Source: Opitutales bacterium (GTDB lineage Bacteria > Verrucomicrobiota > Verrucomicrobiia > Opitutales > UBA953). From it: a stretch of 64,000 bases of DNA. The stretch is from NCBI GenBank assembly GCA_017440935.1, contig JAFSAO010000022.1:1-64000 (forward strand), in the 5' to 3' direction. Shown here piece after piece: positions 2,412 to 34,464 of the stretch (within the stretch, counting starts at the first letter, position 1; every line of letters starts with the position of its first letter). Below the pieces are notes generated by a model. It searched no databases and was not told where the DNA came from. It was given only the letters and a program-made list of their open reading frames with translations. A program made the translations under genes and the position numbers.

Positions 2412-4520
2412 TCACGGAGCGAAAATATCCAACAAATTTTCTGCGGGAACGCCTTCTTCTGAAGAATGTCTAATTTTTCGACCGGACGCGGCATCCATCA
2501 AATCTTCAAAAAAACGCTCCGAACCCGCTGCAGCGGTTCCGGAAAATTCCACCGGTCGCACCGCAACAAAACCGTCCTCCCCCGGAAGTTCCGCCCCGCG
2601 CAACACACCGAGCGTGCGCAACGACTCGGCAAGCGCCCCACAAACTTCCGGCTGCGCAAAAAACTTCAGCGGCCAAAACTCCGGAGCCTCGCCGGCAAGC
2701 GGTCGCGCCGCCGCGTTCCCGCGGATTTTCAGATCCTTTCCGACCAATCCGAAATCCTCGCAAACCAAATCTCCGCCCACCCGATAATACCCGCGCGCGC
2801 TCAATTCGGCATACGAAAAATCCGTCAGCAAATCTTTCACAAATCCTGCGGCTTCCGCCAAACTCGCCGCGCGCGGCTCCAAGTTCCGCGTCAACCCGCC
2901 GAACATACTTGCAAGGCTTCCGCCGATTTTCAGAACATCTCCGGCAAGCCGGATTTTTTTGCTGTCAGCGTTAAAAATACGCACACGCCCGCTCCCGACA
3001 TTTTTCATACTGAAATTCACGGCAAAGGATTTTTCGAGATGCTCGGGCAAATCCGCTTCGGCAGAAAGGCAAAAATCCAAATCAAACCGACCCTCAATCG
3101 GCGCAGGATTACGGGAACGCAACGCGGGAATGACTTGGTGAATCTCAATCCCGCGGCCCGCCAAAGTCCCTCCGAAACGGTAATGCGGCGCCTTTTTCGA
3201 AAAATCCAACGTAAACGCGCCTTCCGCGTTCCCGCGATAAAGCTCGGGCAATGTATATCGGAGTTCAATACATTTTTCATTCACGGAAAAACGTCCGCGA
3301 TGCTCCCCAAATTCGTTTTCGGGGAAAACAACGCGCTCCACGCAAAAATCCATCGTCCCGGAAACACCGTTCCAAAGCGCTTCCGCAGGAGAATCCGCCT
3401 TCGTGGGAAGAACGACATTTTCCGCCTTCGACTTCACATCGGCAATTGCGGGAACAGGAACAGATTCCGGCTTTTCCGCGACGGAGCCCGAAGGCGTTCC
3501 CGTAGAAAGTTTCGATACAGAAGCGCTGCTCGAAATTGCCGGGCGCGCCGCGCTTTCCGAGCCAAATTTTTTCGCCGGCACAGAATTATTCCAACCGCGA
3601 AAGAGCAACCCCGCACGCAAAATGTCGGAGACAACAAGCGTTTCCGCGTTCATTTCGCCGGAAAAAATCAGTTGTCCTTCCCCGAATGCCAAATGCGAAA
3701 AATTCACTTCCGCGCAGGATTTTTGTCTCCCGAAAAGTTCCGCCGAAAACGTTCCCGTCGTTCCGCCGCCGCGCTTTGCCGCGAAATTCAACGCGGGAAT
3801 CTCGATTTCTCCGTAGCGCGAACGCAAATTTTTCAGAGAAAGTCGGGCTGATTTTCCCCGCCCGGAAAGTTCAAACGTTCCCGCCGACACATTGTTGATT
3901 TTTGAAAAAATCGGTTGTGCGAGCAACGCCGCAAAGTCTCCGCAAACGTCCCCGGAAAGGCTCAACGGTTCCGCTCCGACAAAATCGCCGCGAACGTTCC
4001 CTTCCGCGATACGCGTTCCCGCACGGGAAATGCGAAGGTTTTCCGCAAAAAACGACCACGCCAGCGGCGAACCGAGCGTAAATTTTTCCAACGGAGCCCA
4101 CGGCAAAAAATTCGCTCCGATTTGCTTCGCACTCGCCGAAAACGCAAGCTGCCGCCGCCCGCGCGCATCGTCCAGCGCAAAACCTTCGCAGGAAAAGTCG
4201 CGGAACGACGGCGTTCCCGAGAAGAGTCCGCGCGTGCCGTTGTGCCGCGCGGAAAATTTTTCCACACGCAAACGTGTTCCGTCGGGAAGCGTTACCGAAG
4301 CTCCGCTCAGCGAAATTCTGTCGGAAATCAGAAAATCGAAATGCAACGCATCGAAATGCACTTCAATTCCCTGTTTCTCCAAAATTCCCGTCACCCAAAA
4401 CCGTTGCACCGCCGCATTGTTAAGCGCAATCAGCGTTCCCGCGAAACCGACAACAGCAACCCCCGCGCCCCACACAAAAGCGCGAAGTATCCGTCGCCGC
4501 CATTTCGACTTTTTGGTCAT
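2412..4520 (-). CDS. AsmA/TamB-like inner-membrane-anchored protein
   Basis: A 702-aa protein with basic residues and one N-terminal membrane segment (about 15-33), then a long beta-rich region with no catalytic motif. The layout of one N-terminal anchor plus repetitive beta strands (for example the region following HFDALHFDFL) is that of AsmA/DUF748/TamB-type proteins, bridge-like proteins implicated in lipid transfer to the outer membrane. A Ser/Pro/Ala-rich linker falls at about 320-385. Neighbours MsbA, ExbD and lipoprotein genes fit an envelope role. The family call rests on architecture, not a clear motif. The gene carries about ten GGGAACG-type words. Confidence 0.55.
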   Translation of the reverse strand: MTKKSKWRRRILRAFVWGAGVAVVGFAGTLIALNNAAVQRFWVTGILEKQGIEVHFDALHFDFLISDRISLSGASVTLPDGTRLRVEKFSARHNGTRGLFSGTPSFRDFSCEGFALDDARGRRQLAFSASAKQIGANFLPWAPLEKFTLGSPLAWSFFAENLRISRAGTRIAEGNVRGDFVGAEPLSLSGDVCGDFAALLAQPIFSKINNVSAGTFELSGRGKSARLSLKNLRSRYGEIEIPALNFAAKRGGGTTGTFSAELFGRQKSCAEVNFSHLAFGEGQLIFSGEMNAETLVVSDILRAGLLFRGWNNSVPAKKFGSESAARPAISSSASVSKLSTGTPSGSVAEKPESVPVPAIADVKSKAENVVLPTKADSPAEALWNGVSGTMDFCVERVVFPENEFGEHRGRFSVNEKCIELRYTLPELYRGNAEGAFTLDFSKKAPHYRFGGTLAGRGIEIHQVIPALRSRNPAPIEGRFDLDFCLSAEADLPEHLEKSFAVNFSMKNVGSGRVRIFNADSKKIRLAGDVLKIGGSLASMFGGLTRNLEPRAASLAEAAGFVKDLLTDFSYAELSARGYYRVGGDLVCEDFGLVGKDLKIRGNAAARPLAGEAPEFWPLKFFAQPEVCGALAESLRTLGVLRGAELPGEDGFVAVRPVEFSGTAAAGSERFFEDLMDAASGRKIRHSSEEGVPAENLLDIFAP

Positions 4521-10646: not shown

Positions 10647-10661
10647 GGTAAAAATTGGAGA

Positions 10662-20785: not shown

Positions 20786-23700
20786 CTACTTGCAATTGCC
20801 GTCGGGTTCGCGACGACGGCGGCAGGAAGCGGCGAGCGCGAGAGCAAACGTTCCCGCGAGCAAGCCGAACGCCGAAGGTTCCGGAACAAATGTAATTCCC
20901 CAACCGCCCGAAACGTTCCCGTATTTATAAAATGCGGAATTCAACGCCTCACCGTTTTGCAAAACGTCAATCTTTTCAATTTTTTCAAAAGAAGAATTTC
21001 CGCTGACGAGCGTAATCACATCCCCCTTTTCGTAAGTGCTGTTGTAGTCGAGAACGACGGTAATCGTCGTTGCCAGCGCAGAGAGCATCGCGCCGTCTGC
21101 GACGGAAATCACGGCATCCTGCGCAGCGCGCGTCTCCGGTTTTTTAACGTAGAAAACCATTTCGTTGCCGGAAAATTCTGTGTTCGCCGTAAGCGTGACG
21201 CTCGCCGTTGTAACGTTCCCGCTCGCGTCCGCGCTTCCGATTTTCCACGCGCTGGCGAAAATCGTCCCCGCGTTAAGCGAAAACGCGCCCTGCGTGAAAT
21301 GAAGTTTTTCCGCGACGGAAACATTTCCCGAAATCTGCGCCGCAGATTGACCGACGGACTTGAGCGACATCGTTCCGTCCGATGCAAGCGCATCGCCCGC
21401 TGTCGTAATCGTTGCTCCGTTGAGCGAAACGGAGGCATCCGTTCCCGTCCAAAGCCCGACGAGTTTTCCGGTTCCGTCTCCTTCTCGCGTTGCGGTAATC
21501 GTTCCCGCAAGCGTAACCTCTCCGGAGGCGACGTATGCGCCGTAAACATTTCCCGTCCCCGAAACGGAAACCTTCGTGCTTTCCGTAAGGGTCATGTTCG
21601 TATTTTCGGCGTAAATGCCGTAAGCGTTCCCTGTTCCCGTAAGGGTGATTGTGCTTCCCTTCAAATTGAGGCTCCCTGTGTATCCCTTAGCGTAAACACC
21701 GTAAAAATCGCTATTCCCGGCAGAGCTGCTCCGGTTTTCCGGGGTAACCGTCGTCACGTAATCGGAAGCACTTTCCGTTCTTTTGACGGAGATTGTCGCA
21801 GTGCTCAAATCAAGCTTTCCCGCTCCTTCGAGATACGCACCGTAGGCGTTCCCGTAAAATGATTTTACAGCAATATTCCCGGTGAAACATTGGAATAATG
21901 CGTTCGTCGCGGTCTCCGCAAATCGGATTCCGTAAGCGCTCCCGTCGACGGTGTTGGATTCTGATATAATATTCGTCAGTCCCGTGGCGTCTATGGTTGC
22001 GTATCCGTCCAAGTAAACTCCGTAAGCATATTGAGAATCCACTGCCGAAAACGACTTCAGGTTGGAAACGCTGACCCTTCCCGTAGCATAAAAACCGTAG
22101 GCGTTCCCGCCGGCGGCAATTGCCGTAAAGGAATTTCCCGGCATGTGGTAAGCCTCGTTGTCTCCTTCAAGGTAAAGCCCGTAGGCAGAAGGCGTTATTC
22201 CCGGCGCGCCGTAGGCATACGCCGTAAACTGCGAGTTTGTAATAGTCAGCCCCGACGAATCTCTTCTGGCGTGGTTGAACACGCCGACCCCGCCGTCGCT
22301 TTCTGTCGTTTCGCCGGAAAAGTCTTTCCCGTAAGCCAAGCCGTAGCTGTCGCGGGCGCCTCCCGGTTTGACCGAAATCGAAGAATTATCGACCGTAAAA
22401 TCAACATCTTTTCCGATTACAATTCCGCCGGCGCGCCCGTAGTCGTCGGAGTCCGACTGTCCGACAGTTTCCACCGAGATATTCAGGCGGCTCAAAACCT
22501 CGCCGACGGACATTGTTTCCGTTCCCGTGTTGTCGTAAACGAATCCGGCGGACATTCCGACATTTGACTTGGCGGAAATCGTTAAATCACTCATCGAGCC
22601 GACCGACGCGCCGTTGTGCATGTAAACGCCGACCGCCATTTTTTCCGGGTCCTGCGAAGTGCTTGTTGCCGTGATGTCGTAATTTGCAAACGCTCCGGAA
22701 ACGGTCCCGCCTTTGGTCTCGGAAATTTCGTTCCCGTTTTCATCCAATGTGCTCTTCCCACCCAGAGAAATACCGATTACGTCTCCGGGCGCTTTCACAG
22801 TGAGTTTTGCTTTTTCTCCCGTGCTGACGACATTCCCATCGGCGTCGGTCAAGCCGTTGAGGCTTCCCGCTTTTCTATCCAAATAGATGCCGACGGCGTC
22901 TTCGGTATAAGCGCGAATGTCCAGCGCCGCAGAAAGATTTCCGCCGTATGTGCCGCCTTTGACCCCGAACGCCTTCCCGCCGGCGACACTTCCGTTGAGT
23001 TTAACGTCTCCGTCGATATGAGCGGTCCCGTCCTGATAAATTCCGTATGAGGTTCCGCTTGTGTTATGCGATTCGATCAAAAGGTTATTAAGTATCACGT
23101 CCCCGCTGATATAGGGCGGTTCTCCTTTGTCGTTCCCGTCCCCGTCCACGCCGCGCTGCCAAAATCCGGCGACATTCGCATTTTCACCAAAATACGAGAC
23201 ATTAAGACTTTCAGTAATTTTTATAAACCGAAACTTCTGCTGTGCGCCGTTCCCGCCTTGCTCGTGATAAATCCCGCAAACGGTAGCGAGTCCGTCGTAG
23301 CGCGAGCTGACCGAAACATTTTTTACATTGATTTCGCTGGAATTTGAGGCTTCCGGGTAGAGATCCTTAATGTGATAGCCGGCGACGATCGTGTCTCCGG
23401 AGTAATGACCGGCATCGTTGCTCCCTCCGGAACCGTCCGAGGAAAAATCAATCCCTTCTCCCGTTTGGCTCTCATTTTTAGATCCGCTAATTGTGACTTT
23501 GCCGTGAACCCCGTCCGTTATGTCAATCAGAATGTTTATCAATTTTGCTTCGACTTTTACGCCTGTGACAACAACGTCAATTAACAGTTTAATCGCCTTT
23601 GACGTAGCGCCACCCAAATCCGGAACAAAATCCTCGCGCGGTCTGTTGGCTGCGATTTCCTCCTCCGTAAGGATGTCCGTCCGCCAATATTCTTGGTCGA

Positions 23701-23887
23701 TATCGTCGTAAAAGCCTTCCGCTTTAACTTCAGGTATCCACGTCGGAGTCGTTATGGCGGTTTCGGAATCCGTCGTTCCCGTGTCAGAAGTTCCTGTATT
23801 TTCCGTTCCCGCGGATTCCTCTGCGCAGAGTGAAGCGGCGGCAAACAAAGTGAAAACAGAAAGCCCGGTCAGTTTTCTAATAGTCAT
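20786..23887 (-). CDS. Large PEP-CTERM surface protein with autotransporter-like beta-helix body
   Basis: A 1033-aa protein: signal peptide (MTIRKLTGLSVFTLFAAASLCA), a Glu/Thr/Ser-rich linker, then a long body of Gly/Asn/Ser-rich beta-strand repeats of the YGIYAEN / YGAYLEG type (about 250-830), which is how a right-handed beta-helix passenger looks, and a VPEPS sorting signal with hydrophobic segment and CRRRR near the end. There is no beta-barrel. So a passenger-like body is anchored by the exosortase route. Adhesion or surface-layer function is inferred. A terminator with inverted GGGAACG words follows. Confidence 0.82.
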   Translation of the reverse strand: MTIRKLTGLSVFTLFAAASLCAEESAGTENTGTSDTGTTDSETAITTPTWIPEVKAEGFYDDIDQEYWRTDILTEEEIAANRPREDFVPDLGGATSKAIKLLIDVVVTGVKVEAKLINILIDITDGVHGKVTISGSKNESQTGEGIDFSSDGSGGSNDAGHYSGDTIVAGYHIKDLYPEASNSSEINVKNVSVSSRYDGLATVCGIYHEQGGNGAQQKFRFIKITESLNVSYFGENANVAGFWQRGVDGDGNDKGEPPYISGDVILNNLLIESHNTSGTSYGIYQDGTAHIDGDVKLNGSVAGGKAFGVKGGTYGGNLSAALDIRAYTEDAVGIYLDRKAGSLNGLTDADGNVVSTGEKAKLTVKAPGDVIGISLGGKSTLDENGNEISETKGGTVSGAFANYDITATSTSQDPEKMAVGVYMHNGASVGSMSDLTISAKSNVGMSAGFVYDNTGTETMSVGEVLSRLNISVETVGQSDSDDYGRAGGIVIGKDVDFTVDNSSISVKPGGARDSYGLAYGKDFSGETTESDGGVGVFNHARRDSSGLTITNSQFTAYAYGAPGITPSAYGLYLEGDNEAYHMPGNSFTAIAAGGNAYGFYATGRVSVSNLKSFSAVDSQYAYGVYLDGYATIDATGLTNIISESNTVDGSAYGIRFAETATNALFQCFTGNIAVKSFYGNAYGAYLEGAGKLDLSTATISVKRTESASDYVTTVTPENRSSSAGNSDFYGVYAKGYTGSLNLKGSTITLTGTGNAYGIYAENTNMTLTESTKVSVSGTGNVYGAYVASGEVTLAGTITATREGDGTGKLVGLWTGTDASVSLNGATITTAGDALASDGTMSLKSVGQSAAQISGNVSVAEKLHFTQGAFSLNAGTIFASAWKIGSADASGNVTTASVTLTANTEFSGNEMVFYVKKPETRAAQDAVISVADGAMLSALATTITVVLDYNSTYEKGDVITLVSGNSSFEKIEKIDVLQNGEALNSAFYKYGNVSGGWGITFVPEPSAFGLLAGTFALALAASCRRRREPDGNCK

Positions 23888-24077: not shown

Positions 24078-24488
24078 TTAGTGCTTGGATTTGACAAGCT
24101 TTTGCGCGATGGCGAAGCGGGCGACGGCTTCGAGGCGTTCGAGCTCGGCGGGATCGATTTCCTTTTGGTGGCGCGCCGCTTCGAGCGCGGCTTCGGCGCG
24201 TTTCTGTGCATCTTCCACGGCAGAAAGATCGATCGCCTTGACATCGATGGCGGCTTCGGCAAGCACGCTCACGCGGTCGGCGAGCACGCGCGCGTAGCCT
24301 TTGTCGACGGCGAGCTTCGTCGTTCCCGCGCTTGTTTCCACGTCGATTTCGCCGGGTTCGATTTCCGCCGTCAGCGGAATGTGCCCGGGAAGAATCCCGA
24401 GCTCGCCGCTCGTCGTCGGAAGCGTCACGGAATTGACGTTTTCCGCCTGATAAACAATGCCTGTGGGAGTTACGATTTCAAAAGTCAT
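24078..24488 (-). CDS. atpC: ATP synthase epsilon subunit
   Basis: A 136-aa F1 central-stalk subunit. The N-terminal beta-sandwich is clear (MTFEIVTPTGIVYQAENVNSVTLPTTSGELGILPGHIPL), followed by the two-helix C-terminal domain (AQKRAEAALEAAR). A good AAAGGA ribosome site precedes the ATG. It is the last atp gene, separated from atpD by an inverted-repeat cassette with a four-helix-bundle gene. Confidence 0.95.
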   Translation of the reverse strand: MTFEIVTPTGIVYQAENVNSVTLPTTSGELGILPGHIPLTAEIEPGEIDVETSAGTTKLAVDKGYARVLADRVSVLAEAAIDVKAIDLSAVEDAQKRAEAALEAARHQKEIDPAELERLEAVARFAIAQKLVKSKH

Positions 24489-24510
24489 ATGTTTTCCTTT
24501 TTTTTATTTA

Positions 24511-24546
24511 ATGAATAGTGAATAATGAATAGCGAATAACGCAGTG
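24511..24546. repeat. Left inverted repeat of cassette 1 (family 1)
   Basis: A 36-bp sequence whose reverse complement matches 24926-24961 at 34 of 36 positions. It lies 23 bp upstream of the atpC start. Confidence 0.9.
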
Positions 24547-24556
24547 CTGAAAGGCT

Positions 24557-24940
24557 TCAGATTTTCTCTTCGAGAAAAATCCGGCGTTTCGTTGTATTGA
24601 TTGTTGCCGTGAGCATTTTTATTAACTCAACGCAATCCGCATACAGGGACTCAAACTGTGTCTGTGTAATAAATTCCCCTTCAAGCAGAAGCTCCAACCA
24701 ATATTCGGTTTCCGCAGCTTCCTTTAACGCAATGCTCATTTTTGAAACGAAATCTTTTTTGCTCTGTGCGTATCCCGCTTCGCAAATATTCGCGCCGATA
24801 CTCGTTCCGCTCCGAAGAAGCTGAGCAGACAAAACACGTTCACGCGTCTTATCCGTCAAATATCGATTCAGTTTCACAATCCGCATTGCAAACTTCTTCG
24901 ACTTTTCTCTCAACTTATTTTCAGACACTGCGTTATTCAC
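24557..24940 (-). CDS. Four-helix-bundle protein, 23S rRNA intervening-sequence (IVP/S23) family
   Basis: A 127-aa all-helical protein of the TIGR02436-type four-helix bundle family: KKFAMRIVKLNRYL, LSAQLLRSGTSIGANICEA and AETEYWLELLLEGEFI are the family signatures. Family members are often encoded within 23S rRNA intervening sequences and their role is unknown. The start codon is GTG at 24938-24940, inside the right inverted repeat. The gene separates atpD from atpC and has different style and composition from its neighbours, so it looks inserted. Confidence 0.88.
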   Translation of the reverse strand: MNNAVSENKLREKSKKFAMRIVKLNRYLTDKTRERVLSAQLLRSGTSIGANICEAGYAQSKKDFVSKMSIALKEAAETEYWLELLLEGEFITQTQFESLYADCVELIKMLTATINTTKRRIFLEEKI

Positions 24941-24961
24941 TATTCATTATTCACTATTCGT
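24926..24961. repeat. Right inverted repeat of cassette 1 (family 1)
   Basis: Matches 24511-24546 in inverted orientation (34/36). It begins just past the atpD stop codon and contains the GTG start of the four-helix-bundle gene. Confidence 0.9.
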
Positions 24962-24966
24962 TGGTG

Positions 24967-26388
<1,422 letters not shown>

Positions 26389-26500: not shown

Positions 26501-26530
26501 TTTCTTTAAGCTTTAAGCCCTAAGCACTCA
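26501..26530. repeat. Family-2 repeat after the atpG stop
   Basis: TTTCTTTAAGCTTTAAGCCC then TAAGCACTCA, the same family and orientation as after atpA and atpF. Confidence 0.7.
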
Positions 26531-27435: not shown

Positions 27436-27447
27436 TTGGAAAAAAGA

Positions 27448-27476
27448 TTAGAGCTTAATGCTTAAAGCTTAAAGAA
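27448..27476. repeat. Left inverted repeat of cassette 2 (family 2)
   Basis: A 29-bp sequence whose reverse complement equals 27892-27920 except one base. It lies 12 bp upstream of the atpG start. Confidence 0.9.
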
Positions 27477-27507
27477 GGTGTAAGTTTTAAGAAAAAGCAG
27501 TTTAAGG

Positions 27508-27882
27508 TTAAATTGATTGTTTGTTGCGACGAAGCCCGCTAAGCATTCTTGCAATTTCCTGAATGAGAGCCCCTAAGTCCTCAAAGCGTTCCCGCGAAAT
27601 GTAGCCCAAATCCTCCGCCAGTTGAAGTTGGCAAAAAACTTCCATCAACGAACCGTAAGCGATTTCGATAAAACGGATTTGATCTTTCGGGGATTCCTTT
27701 GCACTTCCTTCGGCGATGTTTGAAGGGACGGAAATCACGGCTCGCCGCAATTGATCCGCAAGCGAAAAACGCTCCGCGTGCGGGAACGATTCCAACACGG
27801 AGTAGACGCGTTTCACCAGCTCGCGCGACTTCTGCCACACGAGCAATTTTTGAAACGAGAAAAACGCGTTGGGACTTTCCAT
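27508..27882 (-). CDS. Four-helix-bundle protein, IVP/S23 family (second copy)
   Basis: A 124-aa helical protein with the classic signatures FQKLLVWQKSRELVKRVY, FPHAERFSLADQLRRAVISV and PSNIAEGSAKESPKDQIRFI. It is a divergent second family member, not a duplicate of the one at 24557. ATG 27882 is preferred over a TTG two codons earlier, with GAGAG upstream. It is bracketed by family-2 inverted repeats and sits between atpA and atpG. Confidence 0.9.
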   Translation of the reverse strand: MESPNAFFSFQKLLVWQKSRELVKRVYSVLESFPHAERFSLADQLRRAVISVPSNIAEGSAKESPKDQIRFIEIAYGSLMEVFCQLQLAEDLGYISRERFEDLGALIQEIARMLSGLRRNKQSI

Positions 27883-27891
27883 CTTCAAACT

Positions 27892-27920
27892 CTCTTTAAG
27901 CTTTAAGCATTAAGCTCTAA
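27892..27920. repeat. Right inverted repeat of cassette 2, overlapping the atpA stop
   Basis: Matches 27448-27476 inverted (28/29). It overlaps the last codons and stop of atpA, supplying LELNA and the TAA. Confidence 0.9.
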
Positions 27921-29450
27921 GCTTTTAGCCGCATAAGCGGCTTTCCACTGCGAGCAAGCGGCTTTGATTTTGCCTTCGAGCTCGTCGTCCAGTTTCGCTT
28001 TAGTGCGGATTTCCGTGAGCGTTTCCTTCGCGGAGGTTTCCAAAAATTCCTGAAGCGCGAGCGAGGCGGCGAGCGTCTTTTCCCGCGGGATGTCCGCAAA
28101 GAAATCGTGCTGCATCGCCCAAATCAACGCGATTTGCGAGGCAACCGGTTTCGGTTCGCCGGGACCTTGTTTGAAGAGCTCGACGAAGCGGTCGCCCTTG
28201 TCGAGAATCGTTTTCGTCGCCGCGTCGAGGTCGCTCCCGAACTGCGCAAACGCCGCCATTTCGCGATACTGCGCGAGCTCGCCTTTGACCTTCCCCGCGA
28301 CTTGCTTAAACGCCTTGATCTGCGCGGAGGAACCGACGCGGGAAACCGACAAACCGACGGAAATTGCCGGGCGCACGCCTTGGTTGAACAAGTCCGTTTG
28401 CAGGAAGATTTGCCCGTCCGTAATAGAAATAACGTTGGTCGGAATGTAGGCGGAAACGTCGCCCGCCTGCGTTTCGATAATCGGGAGCGCGGTGAGCGAA
28501 CCTTTCCCCGTCAAACGCGCCGCGCGTTCGAGCAGGCGGGAATGCAGGTAGAAAACGTCGCCCGGATACGCTTCGCGCCCGGAAGGACGTTTCAGAATCA
28601 AAGAAATCTGGCGATACGCGGCGGCGTGCTTCGACAAGTCGTCGTAAACGACGAGCGCGTCCATGCCGTTTTCCATAAACCATTCGCCGATTGCCGCTCC
28701 CGCGAAAGGCGCATACATCTGGTTTGCGGCGTTTTCCGACGCTCCCGCGACGACGATCACGCAGTATTCGAGCGCTCCCGCCTTTTCGAGTGTCGCAATC
28801 AGGCGCGCCACGCTGGAATTTTTCTGCCCGACGGCAACGTAAATTGAGTAAACCGGGCGGAAATTCGGGTCGCCCGAAGCCAAGCCTTCGCGGTTGATGC
28901 GCGCTTGGTTGATGATGGTGTCGGTCGCAATCGTTGTCTTGCCCGTCGAACGGTCGCCGATGATGAGTTCGCGTTGTCCGCGACCGATCGGAATCATCGC
29001 GTCGATCGGCATGATGCCGGTTTGGAGCGCCTGATTGACGGGTTCACGCGGCATGATGCCGGGAGCGATTTTTTCAATCGGCGCGCGCTCGGCGGCGTTG
29101 ATCGGGCCTTTGCCGTCCACCGGATTGCCGAGCGTATCGACAACGCGCCCGAGCAATTCCTTGCCCACGGGAACGCTGAGCAGGCGTCCCGTCGTCTTGC
29201 AGGTCATGCCTTCTTTGAGCGTCGAAGTATCGCCCATGACCACGACGCCGACAATGTCCTGCTCCAAGTTAAACGCGATACCTTCAAGCCCGTTTTCAAA
29301 CGCGAGCATTTCCGTCATTTGCGTTTTGGAAAGCCCGTCGACTTTCGCCACGCCGTCGGCGAGTTCAATAATCGTGCCGACGTTTGCCTTCTCGGGTTTA
29401 GCGTCGAGCGAAGCAATCGCCGACCGAATATCTTCAAGAATCTGACTCAT
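27903..29450 (-). CDS. atpA: ATP synthase alpha subunit
   Basis: A 515-aa F1 subunit with P-loop [18 protein letters not shown] near 163-180, [48 protein letters not shown] and [12 protein letters not shown]. The C-terminal LELNA and stop codon lie in a family-2 repeat, so the repeat has rewritten the end of the protein. The next atp gene upstream (atpH) is 2.4 kb away because two unrelated genes intervene. Confidence 0.98.
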
Positions 29451-29500: not shown

Positions 29501-30424
29501 TTAACAGCCGCCGCCGCATCCTCCACGGAAACGGGATTTCGATTTCTTTGCCGTTAGCCAATAAGCAATTAATGTTTTTTGGAGTTCGGAAAACTGATCC
29601 TGCAATTTAACGCTAATCGGAGGCGTTGCCAAAAAATAAAGGAGTGCATGGAAATCGCGATCACCTTGAAGTTCCAACGGGACTTTGAGAATGTCTGATT
29701 CACGGGAACGCCACCGGGAAGCACTCCTTAGCAGGAGAAAGTATTCGTAAATTTTTTGAGGATTATTTTCCGCCCAGTCGAGCAAGGCGTCGCGCTCCCG
29801 TGCGAGAAGACGCTCGCGTTTCCCGATTAAATATTTTTGGCGAATATACATAAATTTCGCCATTTCTAATGCCAAGTTCCCATCTCGAATTTTCGTTGTT
29901 TTGGGAAGTTCGAGAATCGGTTTGTATAATTCTTCCGGCGAGTCATTTTCCGCTTCCGAGAAAATATCGGCTACAATTTTCAGACTCATCTCGAATTGTT
30001 CCCTGGCAAGCTCCGGTGCCAAATTTTTCATTTCGGAAGAAAGTAATTCTTCGAGAAAACGCTCTTTCGCCTGGATGTCAACAAGGGCGATTGACTCCAA
30101 CCACCGATTTCCGCTCTTACAAAAATCGTCAAACGGCATACGCCACCCAAGCAACTCATTGTAAGTTTTCTTATTTTTTTCAAATCGTTCCCGTGCTTTT
30201 TCCTGCGTTTTTAAACTCGGAATCTCAACAACAACATTTCCGGAAGAAACTTCGCGGGAAACCGGCTCATCTTCGTCATAGAAATAACCAAACCGCAACG
30301 CCTTTTTCTCGTATTTTTGCGTTTTCGCGGTTTTTTCTCCGTACATAACAGGACCTGCCGGACGCGCAAAAAGCAAACTGCATCCGACAAAGAAAAAAGC
30401 CAAGATCGTTGAGAGATTATTCAC
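29501..30424 (-). CDS. Unrecognised secreted protein with GGCGGGC tail
   Basis: A 307-aa protein with a probable signal peptide (hydrophobic FFFVGCSLLFA), a charged, mostly helical body and an RGGCGGGC end. The GTG start at 30424 overlaps the end of the preceding gene by a few bases, so the two are translationally coupled. I do not recognise the family. It is one of two cargo-like genes between atpH and atpA. GGGAACG words are few here (two seen). Confidence 0.6.
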   Translation of the reverse strand: MNNLSTILAFFFVGCSLLFARPAGPVMYGEKTAKTQKYEKKALRFGYFYDEDEPVSREVSSGNVVVEIPSLKTQEKARERFEKNKKTYNELLGWRMPFDDFCKSGNRWLESIALVDIQAKERFLEELLSSEMKNLAPELAREQFEMSLKIVADIFSEAENDSPEELYKPILELPKTTKIRDGNLALEMAKFMYIRQKYLIGKRERLLARERDALLDWAENNPQKIYEYFLLLRSASRWRSRESDILKVPLELQGDRDFHALLYFLATPPISVKLQDQFSELQKTLIAYWLTAKKSKSRFRGGCGGGC

Positions 30425-31799
30425 TGGATTGCCCCGGACAAAAATCTTTTTTCACTGAAATACTTAATCCTGTTCCGGACCACAGTACGCCATCAGAATC
30501 AACGCTTACGAGTTTAATTTTTTTACACGTTGCAACCTGAACACTCTTCGGTGAAATCTCTTTCTTGTAGTCTCTCTCATCATTCTCTGTTTTCTCTATT
30601 TCAACTAATTCCTCTTCAGAAGCGACCGTCCACCTAACAGGAATTTTCCACGTTAACGTCCCAAGTATAGCTCCTTCTTCTGCATCCAAAAAATCCTTAC
30701 TATTAAAGAAATCGTAAGGAAATTCAAATATGCCAAACCCGACAGTATCTTCCCAATCGTTTTCTTTCTTTAAAGCCATAAGTTCAGTTCCAGGTTCATG
30801 GACTGTCCCCGACATTCCCGAAAATATTCCTGTTGCACTCCTCTCTCCAATGCATTCCCAAAATCGAGCACCGGCGAATGAAACATCAGTAGGGTGTACT
30901 ACTACTTTATATTTTGTTGTCATTCCTACCTCGGCTCGGACAGTCACTTTTTCTCCCGAATCAAGCTTACTAACCGTTTCATAGAACGCATTTCGTTCAT
31001 CAATAATTTCCTCGCCTATTTGGAATTCCGGACAGACAACAGAAATAAAATCCTTTAAAACCTCTCCGTCCGCAAACATCGCAAGTAAAACAACATCCCC
31101 ATCCACATAAAACCTATCCCCTAGAATTTCAATATTCCCCGCAGTTGGCGGAGTAATCGTCAACACGCTTCCATCGGCAAACTCAAGTCGTACAGACGAA
31201 GGTCCTTCCAACTCCAAACTTTCATCATCTTTAGAGCGAATCCAAATTTTTAAAGATTCCCCGACTCCGATTTTTCGGCGCTCTGAAATCGGATAATTTT
31301 CTGTTAGCCCCGCATTTCCCGCATTCGGCGGAGCATAGAGAAAGCCGATGTGTAGCTTCCTTAAAGACCGTTTCAGAATAATTGTTACGTTAAGAGAACA
31401 TGGACCGCCGATGGTTTCGTAATTCCCGCTAAGAGAAAGGCTGTCAGAGGGAGAGCTTATCCATTGCTTTGTTTCATCCTCGCTCGGATTATGCAAGGTT
31501 GAGCTCGCTGAAATTTCCCCGATATTCACAGTTGCGGTATCATCAGAAGAAACACGTACGGAATAAAGATTCGCGGAGTATTTAATGTTGCAGGAAAATG
31601 CTGCCGTAAATTTTTGTTGGTAATAGGGTGCTGTTCTTGAAAACCCAAACGAAATCGTTGTTATTTCATACGCGCCGGAAATCTCCCGTGTAACAGCAGG
31701 AATTATGCTTTCCGCCAAGCCTTCAGGGGGCTCATCGCCCCCGCATGTAAAAGACCAACCGGAAATAATGTCCTGCCAATCCAATGTTTCTGTGCTCAT
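30417..31799 (-). CDS. Unrecognised 460-aa beta-rich protein
   Basis: No signal peptide, membrane segment or known motif is seen. The sequence is beta-rich, with repeated Ser/Thr/Gly strands and a region ADGSVLTITPPTAGNIEILG like Ig-like or carbohydrate-binding folds. A good AAAGGA ribosome site precedes ATG 31799. No GGGAACG word falls in it and it is more AT-rich than the atp genes, so recent arrival is likely. It overlaps the next gene (ending at 29501), forming a two-gene unit inside the atp locus. Confidence 0.6.
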   Translation of the reverse strand: MSTETLDWQDIISGWSFTCGGDEPPEGLAESIIPAVTREISGAYEITTISFGFSRTAPYYQQKFTAAFSCNIKYSANLYSVRVSSDDTATVNIGEISASSTLHNPSEDETKQWISSPSDSLSLSGNYETIGGPCSLNVTIILKRSLRKLHIGFLYAPPNAGNAGLTENYPISERRKIGVGESLKIWIRSKDDESLELEGPSSVRLEFADGSVLTITPPTAGNIEILGDRFYVDGDVVLLAMFADGEVLKDFISVVCPEFQIGEEIIDERNAFYETVSKLDSGEKVTVRAEVGMTTKYKVVVHPTDVSFAGARFWECIGERSATGIFSGMSGTVHEPGTELMALKKENDWEDTVGFGIFEFPYDFFNSKDFLDAEEGAILGTLTWKIPVRWTVASEEELVEIEKTENDERDYKKEISPKSVQVATCKKIKLVSVDSDGVLWSGTGLSISVKKDFCPGQSSE

Positions 31800-32258: not shown

Positions 32259-32283
32259 TTTCTTTTAAAAATTTATTTTTTAG

Positions 32284-32319
32284 AGAAACCACAAATTTCA
32301 CGAATGAACACGAATTTTA
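32284..32319. repeat. Family-3 repeat between atpH and dinD
   Basis: GAGAAACCACAAATTTCACG then AATGAACACGAAT. A near-copy lies at 33194-33230 and an inverted relative at 33271-33303, so dinD is bracketed by this family. Confidence 0.75.
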
Positions 32320-33177
32320 TTCCGAAGATTCGAGCGTAAAATTTTCATTGCTTAAAAGCATTCGCCGTTCCCGCTCGATTTGCGGAATGCCTTTCGGCGG
32401 ACACGGCAAGTCTTCCGGTAAAGTTCCGCCGAGCTCTTTTATCGTTTCGCGAACTTTTTTTCCGACTTCGTAATGAGCGGAATTTGCGGCGGTTTTTCCC
32501 GTGATGTTTTCCCGACGGATTTTCTCCTCCGCTTGCGTCGCACGGAAAAGGTTCGCGGCAAGTTCCGTGCTACCCATGTGATCGAGAATTTTTTGATTTT
32601 TCTTCAGACCTTTGTGCGCGTGAATCGCTTTCGCGTCCATGCCGCCGTAAAGCCCTTTGTAGCCATGATTTTGGAATATTGCGTAGTCCAATTCCGTGCG
32701 AACTCCGGCTTGTTTGGCTGTTTCGACAAGAGCTTTGTTGTGTTCCCGCAACTCGTTGCGCAAGAACAATCGTCGATCCTCTTCGCTGAGAGCCTTAAAC
32801 GCAGCATCATCCGCAAGCTCCTGTCTCCGCGTTTGAATCGCGAAATACGTTTGTCCAAGCGCGATAACGGGCTTCGACGGATCGCCGTTTTGAACGATAA
32901 GGTAACATGCGTAGCGCGAGAGGTGATAATCTTCGATTTCGCGCTTCGATCCGGAGCCAAGATCGACCATTTTCACCTCAAGGTGAAAATGGTCCGAAAC
33001 CGTTGCTCCTGCCGTTGCGCAGGCGATTTTCGCCTTCTCGATAAGTTGTTTAAACTTTTCCCAGCGGCTGTATTCCAGCACGGGGAAAAGCTCGCGCGCC
33101 GACCAATATTCTCCGCCTTCGGCATGGACGTGTCGGAGTGCTTCAAATGTTCGGTTATGCTTTTCGGGAACGGTCAT
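32317..33177 (-). CDS. dinD: DinD-like DNA-damage-inducible protein
   Basis: A 286-aa protein matching DinD/BRO-type proteins: TFEALRHVHAEGGEYWSARELFPVLEYSRWEKF at the N-terminus, then IEDYHLSRYACYLIVQNGDPSKPVIALGQTYFAIQTRR. DinD is an SOS gene product that modulates RecA in E. coli; the same role is only inferred. The gene interrupts the atp operon between atpF and atpH and is bracketed by family-3 repeats. No clear LexA box is recognised. Confidence 0.88.
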   Translation of the reverse strand: MTVPEKHNRTFEALRHVHAEGGEYWSARELFPVLEYSRWEKFKQLIEKAKIACATAGATVSDHFHLEVKMVDLGSGSKREIEDYHLSRYACYLIVQNGDPSKPVIALGQTYFAIQTRRQELADDAAFKALSEEDRRLFLRNELREHNKALVETAKQAGVRTELDYAIFQNHGYKGLYGGMDAKAIHAHKGLKKNQKILDHMGSTELAANLFRATQAEEKIRRENITGKTAANSAHYEVGKKVRETIKELGGTLPEDLPCPPKGIPQIERERRMLLSNENFTLESSE

Positions 33178-33193
33178 GTGTTTTTATTTTTCG

Positions 33194-33303
33194 GAGAAGA
33201 AACCACGAATCTCACGAATGAACACGAATGTTTTTAACGCAAAGTAAAAAAAGAATTCCGTGGTTAAAATCATTCGTGGAATTTGTGTAATTCGTGGATT
33301 CTC
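33194..33303. repeat. Family-3 repeats between dinD and atpF
   Basis: A direct copy of the repeat at 32284 (GAAACCACGAATCTCACGAA and following) and an inverted partner with ATTCGTGGAATTTGTGTAAT. Together with 32284 these surround dinD. Confidence 0.75.
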
Positions 33304-33336
33304 CTTTCTTTAAGCATTAAGCTTTAAGCTCTAATC
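33304..33336. repeat. Family-2 repeat at the atpF stop
   Basis: CTTTAAGCATTAAGCTTTAA-like repeat, starting immediately after the atpF stop on the minus strand, same orientation as after atpA and atpG. Confidence 0.75.
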
Positions 33337-33891
33337 TTTCTTGATCTCCTTGGCGGCGGCTTCGGCGAGGCGGGATTTTTCCGCGGCGGGAAGATCGCGG
33401 GCGAGGAGCTTGGCTGTTGTTTCGACAACGAGCGCGGCGACTTCGCCTTTCAGGTCGGCAAGCATTTTTTCGCGTTCCCGCGCGATATTTTCGGCGGCGC
33501 GCTTTTCGGTTTCCTCGGCACGGGCGATCGCGTCCTGCGCGGCTTTTTCCACCGTTTCCTTGGCGGCTTTGCGGGCGGATTCGATGACGGCGGCGGCTTC
33601 CTGCGCGGCTTGCGTCATTTTCGCCTTGTAGTCGGCTTCGGACTGCGCGAGCTTTGCCTTCATTTCATCGGAAAACTGCAAACCTTCCGCAATTTTTGCC
33701 TGTCGCTCGGCAATCGTTTTCATCAGCGGGCGGAAGCCGAAATACCACACGACGAGCGCGAGCACGGCAAAGCTGATGATTTGGACGACGAGCGGTCCGG
33801 CTTCGATGCCGAATTTCGTCGTCACCTGTGTAAATTTATTTCCGCCTTCTGCGGCGGCGGGAACGGCACTGGCTAAAATTTGAGCAAACAT
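33331..33891 (-). CDS. atpF: ATP synthase b subunit
   Basis: A 186-aa peripheral stalk subunit: one membrane segment (about 30-50, QIISFAVLALVVWYFGFRPL) then a long coiled coil (KLAQSEADYKAKMTQAAQEA through AREREKMLADLKGEVA). It is a standard bacterial b subunit. It is followed by dinD, not directly by atpH. Confidence 0.95.
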   Translation of the reverse strand: MFAQILASAVPAAAEGGNKFTQVTTKFGIEAGPLVVQIISFAVLALVVWYFGFRPLMKTIAERQAKIAEGLQFSDEMKAKLAQSEADYKAKMTQAAQEAAAVIESARKAAKETVEKAAQDAIARAEETEKRAAENIAREREKMLADLKGEVAALVVETTAKLLARDLPAAEKSRLAEAAAKEIKKD

Positions 33892-34353: not shown

Positions 34354-34464
34354 TAGTGAAATAATGAATAGTGAATAGCTAATAGTTCATTGCTAAGGTT
34401 TTTGCCGTTGGCAAAAACTTTAAACACAGCGTTATTCGTTATTCACTATTCATTATTCACTAAC
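34354..34464. repeat. Family-1 palindromic repeat (copy B), between atpB and atpE
   Basis: The inverse of copy A: its reverse complement matches A over most of the length, including the central hairpin. It begins in the last codons of atpB, giving the final Ser-Glu and stop. Confidence 0.85.

Follow-up and report, generated by a model that had tools for sequence, protein, structure and literature searches.

The gene between atpD and atpC in the stretch of 64,000 nucleotides analysed here (the window, part of the 1.84-Mb draft genome G000) most probably belongs to a mobile cassette of a widespread class, which has the design of a 23S rRNA intervening sequence (IVS) and is carried in an mRNA. 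This reading comes from sequence comparisons, which establish the architecture of the cassette, its taxonomic breadth, a bias in gene orientation, nearly private arms and, at one junction, the swapping of an entire cassette among close relatives.

The gene, ivp1, matched the profiles PF05635 (E 9e-29; 100.2 bits against a curated cut-off of 33.8) and TIGR02436, "four helix bundle protein" (111.8 bits, above the curated cut-off of 24). It is kin to the solved structure PDB 2rld; a second IVP relative with a solved structure is 2gsc, from Xanthomonas campestris (XCC0516). The first-pass annotation had placed a four-helix-bundle gene here between 36-bp inverted repeats, the right one containing its GTG start, and all three points stand: the arms are inverted, 37 nt long and 95% complementary, with a spacing of 379 nt. 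What does not stand is the arm as a plain 36-mer, because each arm is an array of about four tandem 7-bp units, TGAATA(R)(Y). At up to three mismatches, a 21-bp segment of the arm was found 11 times in the window, with 0.00 occurrences expected from shuffles. The likeness to a 23S rRNA IVS that had been proposed, a stem with an IVP ORF in the loop, is supported by the arms and the PF05635 ORF, with mRNA rather than rRNA as the host, and we likewise found no transposase-like gene. Two kinds of feature had been overlooked, namely a second IVP cassette and three ORF-less stem-loops with ivp1-type arms. The coordinates of all these features are collected in the table.

Table. IVP cassettes, neighbouring genes and other heptamer elements in the window
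Feature	Position	Strand	Remarks
3' arm (relative to ivp1)	24510-24546	+	about 4 heptamer units TGAATAR plus AACGCAGTG
ivp1	24557-24940	-	127 aa; PF05635/TIGR02436; GTG start within 5' arm; clade-B IVP; relative of PDB 2rld
5' arm of ivp1 cassette	24926-24962	-	about 4 heptamer units, complementing the 3' arm; comes after atpD stop
atpD	24967-26382	-	one neighbour of ivp1 cassette
atpC	24078-24488	-	other neighbour of ivp1 cassette
Second IVP cassette	27443-27929		heptamer arms unlike those of ivp1
Arm of ivp2 cassette	27443-27474		AGCTTAA-type heptamers, upstream of atpG
ivp2	27508-27888	-	126 aa; PF05635 E 4e-39; also PF22296 bAvd E 8e-11; between atpA and atpG
Arm of ivp2 cassette	27894-27929		extends into atpA 3' end, provides atpA stop codon
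ORF-less TGAATAR stem-loop	33935-34042		between atpE and atpF; interior orientation differs among sister genomes
ORF-less TGAATAR stem-loop	34354-34462		between atpB and atpE; arm provides atpB stop codon
ORF-less TGAATAR stem-loop	10659-10767		different heptamer stem-loop in same gap of G007
Lone AGCTTAA-type array	26504-26518		between atpG and atpD
Lone AGCTTAA-type array	33308-33339		atpF 3' end

Congeners differ in what they carry at these junctions. At atpD-atpC, G005 has the same cassette with an IVP 91% identical to ivp1. In G001, G003 and G007 the arms of the cassette are of the TAACTGA type and its IVP shares 53-57% identity with ivp1; G002 has a bare 24-bp gap, and G006 an unrelated gene. 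At atpA-atpG, G000, G001, G003 and G007 carry ivp2 with AGCTTAA arms, G005 carries an AGATTAA-armed IVP of about 60% identity, and the gap in G002 is 27 bp. The word also changes in a similar way at the atpB-atpE gap, at position 65490 of contig C22 and at 10659, and the interior of the short atpE-atpF element is inverted in G005 and G007 relative to G000 and G003. Mobility, which the first-pass annotation had envisaged, thus gains from empty and differently occupied atpD-atpC junctions, where the gene and its brackets vary among relatives, as well as from further copies of the brackets at other places in the genome.

The informative sites of G000 show how the atpD-atpC junction changed. The atpD tail and atpC resemble G003 and G007 at most of these sites, while the final few atpD codons and the opening ~20 bp of atpC resemble G005. 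The G000 cassette was thus exchanged with very little flanking DNA, only ~9 bp on the atpD side and ~20 bp on the atpC side. A further G005-like patch inside atpD of G000 indicates that ordinary recombination also occurs in this region, and the cassette swap could itself be ordinary homologous recombination. In the sequences compared, what can be seen at this junction is one cassette taking the place of another rather than entering an unoccupied site; no near-identical genome offered a clean empty site, and the bare site of G002 is too diverged to be read base by base.

Across the genus, 22 true IVPs occupy seven sites, all in gaps between genes, and heptamer arms are visible in nearly all of them. 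The heptamer word changes between sites and often also between species at a given site. Identity among IVPs is 69-100% where the word is the same and 47-67% where IVPs at the same site have different words. The IVP tree of the genus is poorly resolved within its two clades. That several species have an IVP at the same junctions in constant orientation, that same-site IVPs are usually nearest relatives and that some cassettes are shared by orthology (the gat site) would also be expected of a useful small operon gene inherited vertically, with arms that serve as regulatory or mRNA-processing hairpins, grown by replication slippage and kept inverted by template switching between them. We regard this as improbable, because sister genomes whose flanking genes share 96-97% DNA identity have same-site IVPs that are only about 57% identical, with unrelated arms, and because mosaic breakpoints adjoin the cassette, three congeners have no IVP gene at all and many ORF-less copies are scattered over unrelated loci of one genome.

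These copies were counted with a degenerate TGAATAR pattern, which matched G000 84 times on both strands at up to two mismatches, with none for the reversed control. The matches group into about 24 places, and 19 complete short stem-loops (~105 bp) were recovered; in all, G000 has about 20-24 elements with these arms, and only the atpD-atpC copy has an IVP gene inside its arms. Common to the short elements are the arm, a segment like AACGCAGTG at the inner side and a TTTTTGC...GCAAAAA hairpin, and such dispersed copies sharing their ends with a gene-bearing copy are a criterion for MITEs and transposons. At up to one mismatch, TGAATAR matched 177 times in G005, 66 times each in G000 and G003, 18 times in G007 and 17 times in G001, and had no match in G002, G004 and G006, exactly the congeners without a PF05635 match. 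TAACTGA-type arrays numbered 22 in G003, 15 in G001, 14 in G005, 3 in G007 and 0 in G000. AGCTTAA and AGATTAA arrays are frequent in the genomes with IVP genes, but their reversed controls match too, and some AGCTTAA-type arrays are present in G004, which has no IVP. Since G003 has many TGAATAR elements and no TGAATAR-armed IVP was found there, the case for dependence of the elements on an IVP in trans falls short of proof.

The ends of the 19 short elements gave two negative results. Target duplications, which had been raised together with mobility, did not appear: none of the 19 has a repeat of at least 3 bp at the stem ends, where boundaries are hard to fix in arrays. In addition, the two arms of one element scored slightly lower as a pair than arms taken from different elements, probably owing to the asymmetric inner ends of each element. 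Because own arms were no better matched than swapped arms, selection for a perfect stem is not supported.

Beyond the genus, IVP genes were present in 141 of 195 Verrucomicrobiota genomes, and a GTDB scan found them in Bacteroidota, Planctomycetota, Acidobacteriota, Nitrospirota, Chloroflexota, Clostridia, patescibacteria and others. We sampled 154 IVP genes from many phyla, some loci being near-duplicates. The best self-match of the flank fell at a lag of 7 or 14 in 105 of the 154 upstream and 93 of the 154 downstream flanks, and at a lag of 8 in 28 and 22 respectively, while shuffles were flat. With a score threshold applied, 48.5% of the IVP flanks had arrays of lag 7 or 8, against 4.1% for control windows from the same loci (p 7e-51). 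Inverted arms (score at least 12) were found in 115 of 153 cases, compared with 16 for direct orientation and 3 for arms paired across different loci; about a quarter of the sampled IVPs are without clear inverted arms. Heptamer arrays accompany five of six cyanobacterial plasmid IVPs, the Pseudanabaena array being direct rather than inverted. No match to ivp2 was found in phages.

The words themselves are nearly private, with 62 distinct ones among 79 arms after removal of duplicates, and arm similarity falls from 0.83 through 0.49, 0.25 and 0.18 to 0.17 as IVP identity drops from at least 80% to below 40%. The mean purine content is 0.65 in the 5' array and 0.31 in the 3' array. In 110 of 145 cases the IVP gene is sense to both neighbours, and in 1 of 145 it is antisense to both, against 53 of 115 and 25 of 115 in an all-gene control from one genus. 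An explanation of the heptamers by stop codons in all three frames was rejected as not universal (sense 40% versus antisense 21% of arms).

These data also bear on whether the heptamer arrays could be an independent class of intergenic repeats, REP- or MITE-like and moved by something else, between which IVP genes were merely captured. Most TGAATAR elements are indeed ORF-less, many genomic arrays have no IVP between them, and other genes lie between different short-repeat arms (a DinD-like gene in G000 and a GxxExxY-like gene in G013). Nevertheless, such arms are found on IVP genes of many phyla, the word tracks the IVP lineage, and TGAATAR arrays are absent from the congeners without IVP genes, all of which makes simple capture unlikely.

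For the mobile cassette that we favour, the layout is a 5' tandem array of 7-mers (8-mers in other lineages), the IVP gene and a complementary 3' array, occupying the gap between two operon genes and sense to both. The cassette probably lacks a promoter of its own, so that the IVP would be expressed from the host transcript. In this transcript the arms may pair into a long stem, as suggested by the folding of the RNA of the ivp1 cassette stretch (z = -8.4 versus shuffles). From the folding, and from the published finding that the Coxiella IVS is cut at its first heptamer, we infer that RNase III probably cuts the stem, which would free the IVP message and leave both host frames whole. The heptamer is inherited and diverges along with the IVP, giving each lineage a nearly private word, and the ORF-less short stem-loops, to judge from their shared arms and inner ends, are probably non-autonomous derivatives. 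On this reading, essential operons such as atp are repeatedly opened at gene junctions without damage to the genes. We know of no catalytic motif in IVPs. A reverse transcriptase (PF00078) had no match in G000 and, among the congeners, matched only in G001 and G005; this lack of a match argues against movement driven by a reverse transcriptase from within G000.

Several known systems resemble the cassette in part. The 23S IVS of Coxiella burnetii has a 28-bp stem and an S23p ORF preceded by tandem GACAGAT heptamers, with an RNase III site at the first of these repeats (PMC4990558). The ivp1 cassette shares with such IVSs the long terminal stem of inverted repeats around the ORF, an ORF of the IVP/S23p family in the loop, a length of ~430-450 nt and tandem heptamers beside the ORF. 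It differs in its place in an intergenic mRNA gap, atpD-atpC, rather than a 23S rRNA helix, in its many same-armed ORF-less copies and in the exchange of heptamer types at one site; none of 20 sampled IVP loci had an rRNA match in Rfam. We therefore file the cassette apart from true IVSs, as IVS-like in design and located outside the rRNA that defines them.

Intergenic heptamer repeats have been described with the word TAACTGA in Beggiatoaceae, cyanobacteria and Bacteroidetes (PMC4679880), and with GGGAATC in Xanthomonas and GGGGA(C/T)T in Nostoc, two Xanthomonas genomes having 70 and 75 inverted heptamer pairs (PMC4692102). The roles discussed are G-quadruplex or translational, and the text of neither paper mentions S23 or 23S genes (PMC4679880, PMC4692102). 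These repeats share with the cassettes tandem 7-mers in gene gaps and, in Xanthomonas, inverted pairs, and the published TAACTGA is the same word, rotated, as in the arms of G001, G003 and G007. REPIN/RAYT systems and MITEs (PMC3116915) likewise have short paired-arm intergenic elements beside a gene-bearing form, whereas the cassettes have no transposase-like gene, no target-site duplication was seen and the arms are tandem 7-mers. The Avd family of diversity-generating retroelements is related to IVPs, a homology already noted (PMC10053308) and reflected in the bAvd match of ivp2; unlike such retroelements, G000 has no reverse transcriptase match. Apart from the Coxiella IVS itself, we found no literature linking IVP genes to heptamer arrays genome-wide (subscription papers and preprints being outside the scope). 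IVSs in 23S rRNA and heptamer repeats were already known.

23S rRNA IVSs have been known for decades and, to our knowledge, have no accepted origin. We also know of no function for the widespread IVP genes, nor of a mechanism for the heptamer repeats reported in several phyla. The association ties the three together and makes each testable. It predicts a source of the IVP genes; heptamer arrays should indicate existing or former IVP elements, and each IVP should recognise its own word. More tentatively, and leaning slightly towards doubt, we suggest that IVP proteins may be the protein half of pan-bacterial mobile elements, whose code would be a fast-evolving, lineage-private 7- or 8-bp word in both arms and which would spread by mutual replacement at operon junctions. 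The heptamer repeats of cyanobacteria, Beggiatoaceae and Xanthomonas and the 23S rRNA IVSs would then be members or remnants of one class.

Some further observations concern the surroundings of these elements. Three upstream genes take their stop codon and final residues from a heptamer array, namely atpA (27894-27929), atpB (34440-34462) and a gene near 65.4 kb of contig C22 (G000, position 65460). Two of the six cyanobacterial plasmid IVPs lie between cas6 and cas4 (Anabaena sp. 90, locus L320, and Pseudanabaena galeata, L324), and one is antisense between ribonucleotide reductase genes. At the IVP locus of a KSB1 bacterium (L174), two Acido-Lenti-1 RNA motifs (RF01687) lie nearby, at 2480-2525 and 3053-3098.

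Within the atp region of the window, CACGAAT repeats with 9-10 bp spacing, in both orientations, lie on either side of a DinD-like gene (32260-33310) found between atpH and atpF. A relative with 85% protein identity at another atp junction of G002 (atpG-atpD) suggests that this gene may have relocated between atp junctions. The atpD-atpC junction of G013, from another genus (L048, ~970-1460), holds an ORF, which we take to be GxxExxY-like, flanked by CACGAAT repeats with 10-bp spacing and an inverted copy on the far side; it perhaps represents a second class of short-repeat-armed cassette. The atpA-atpH gap (29501-31799) contains two inserted genes without assigned function (307 and 460 aa), and this gap is 47 bp in G003 and has related genes in G005. 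Adjoining atpC, positions 20786-23887 encode a repetitive 1033-aa protein with a PEP-CTERM-like C-terminal tail.
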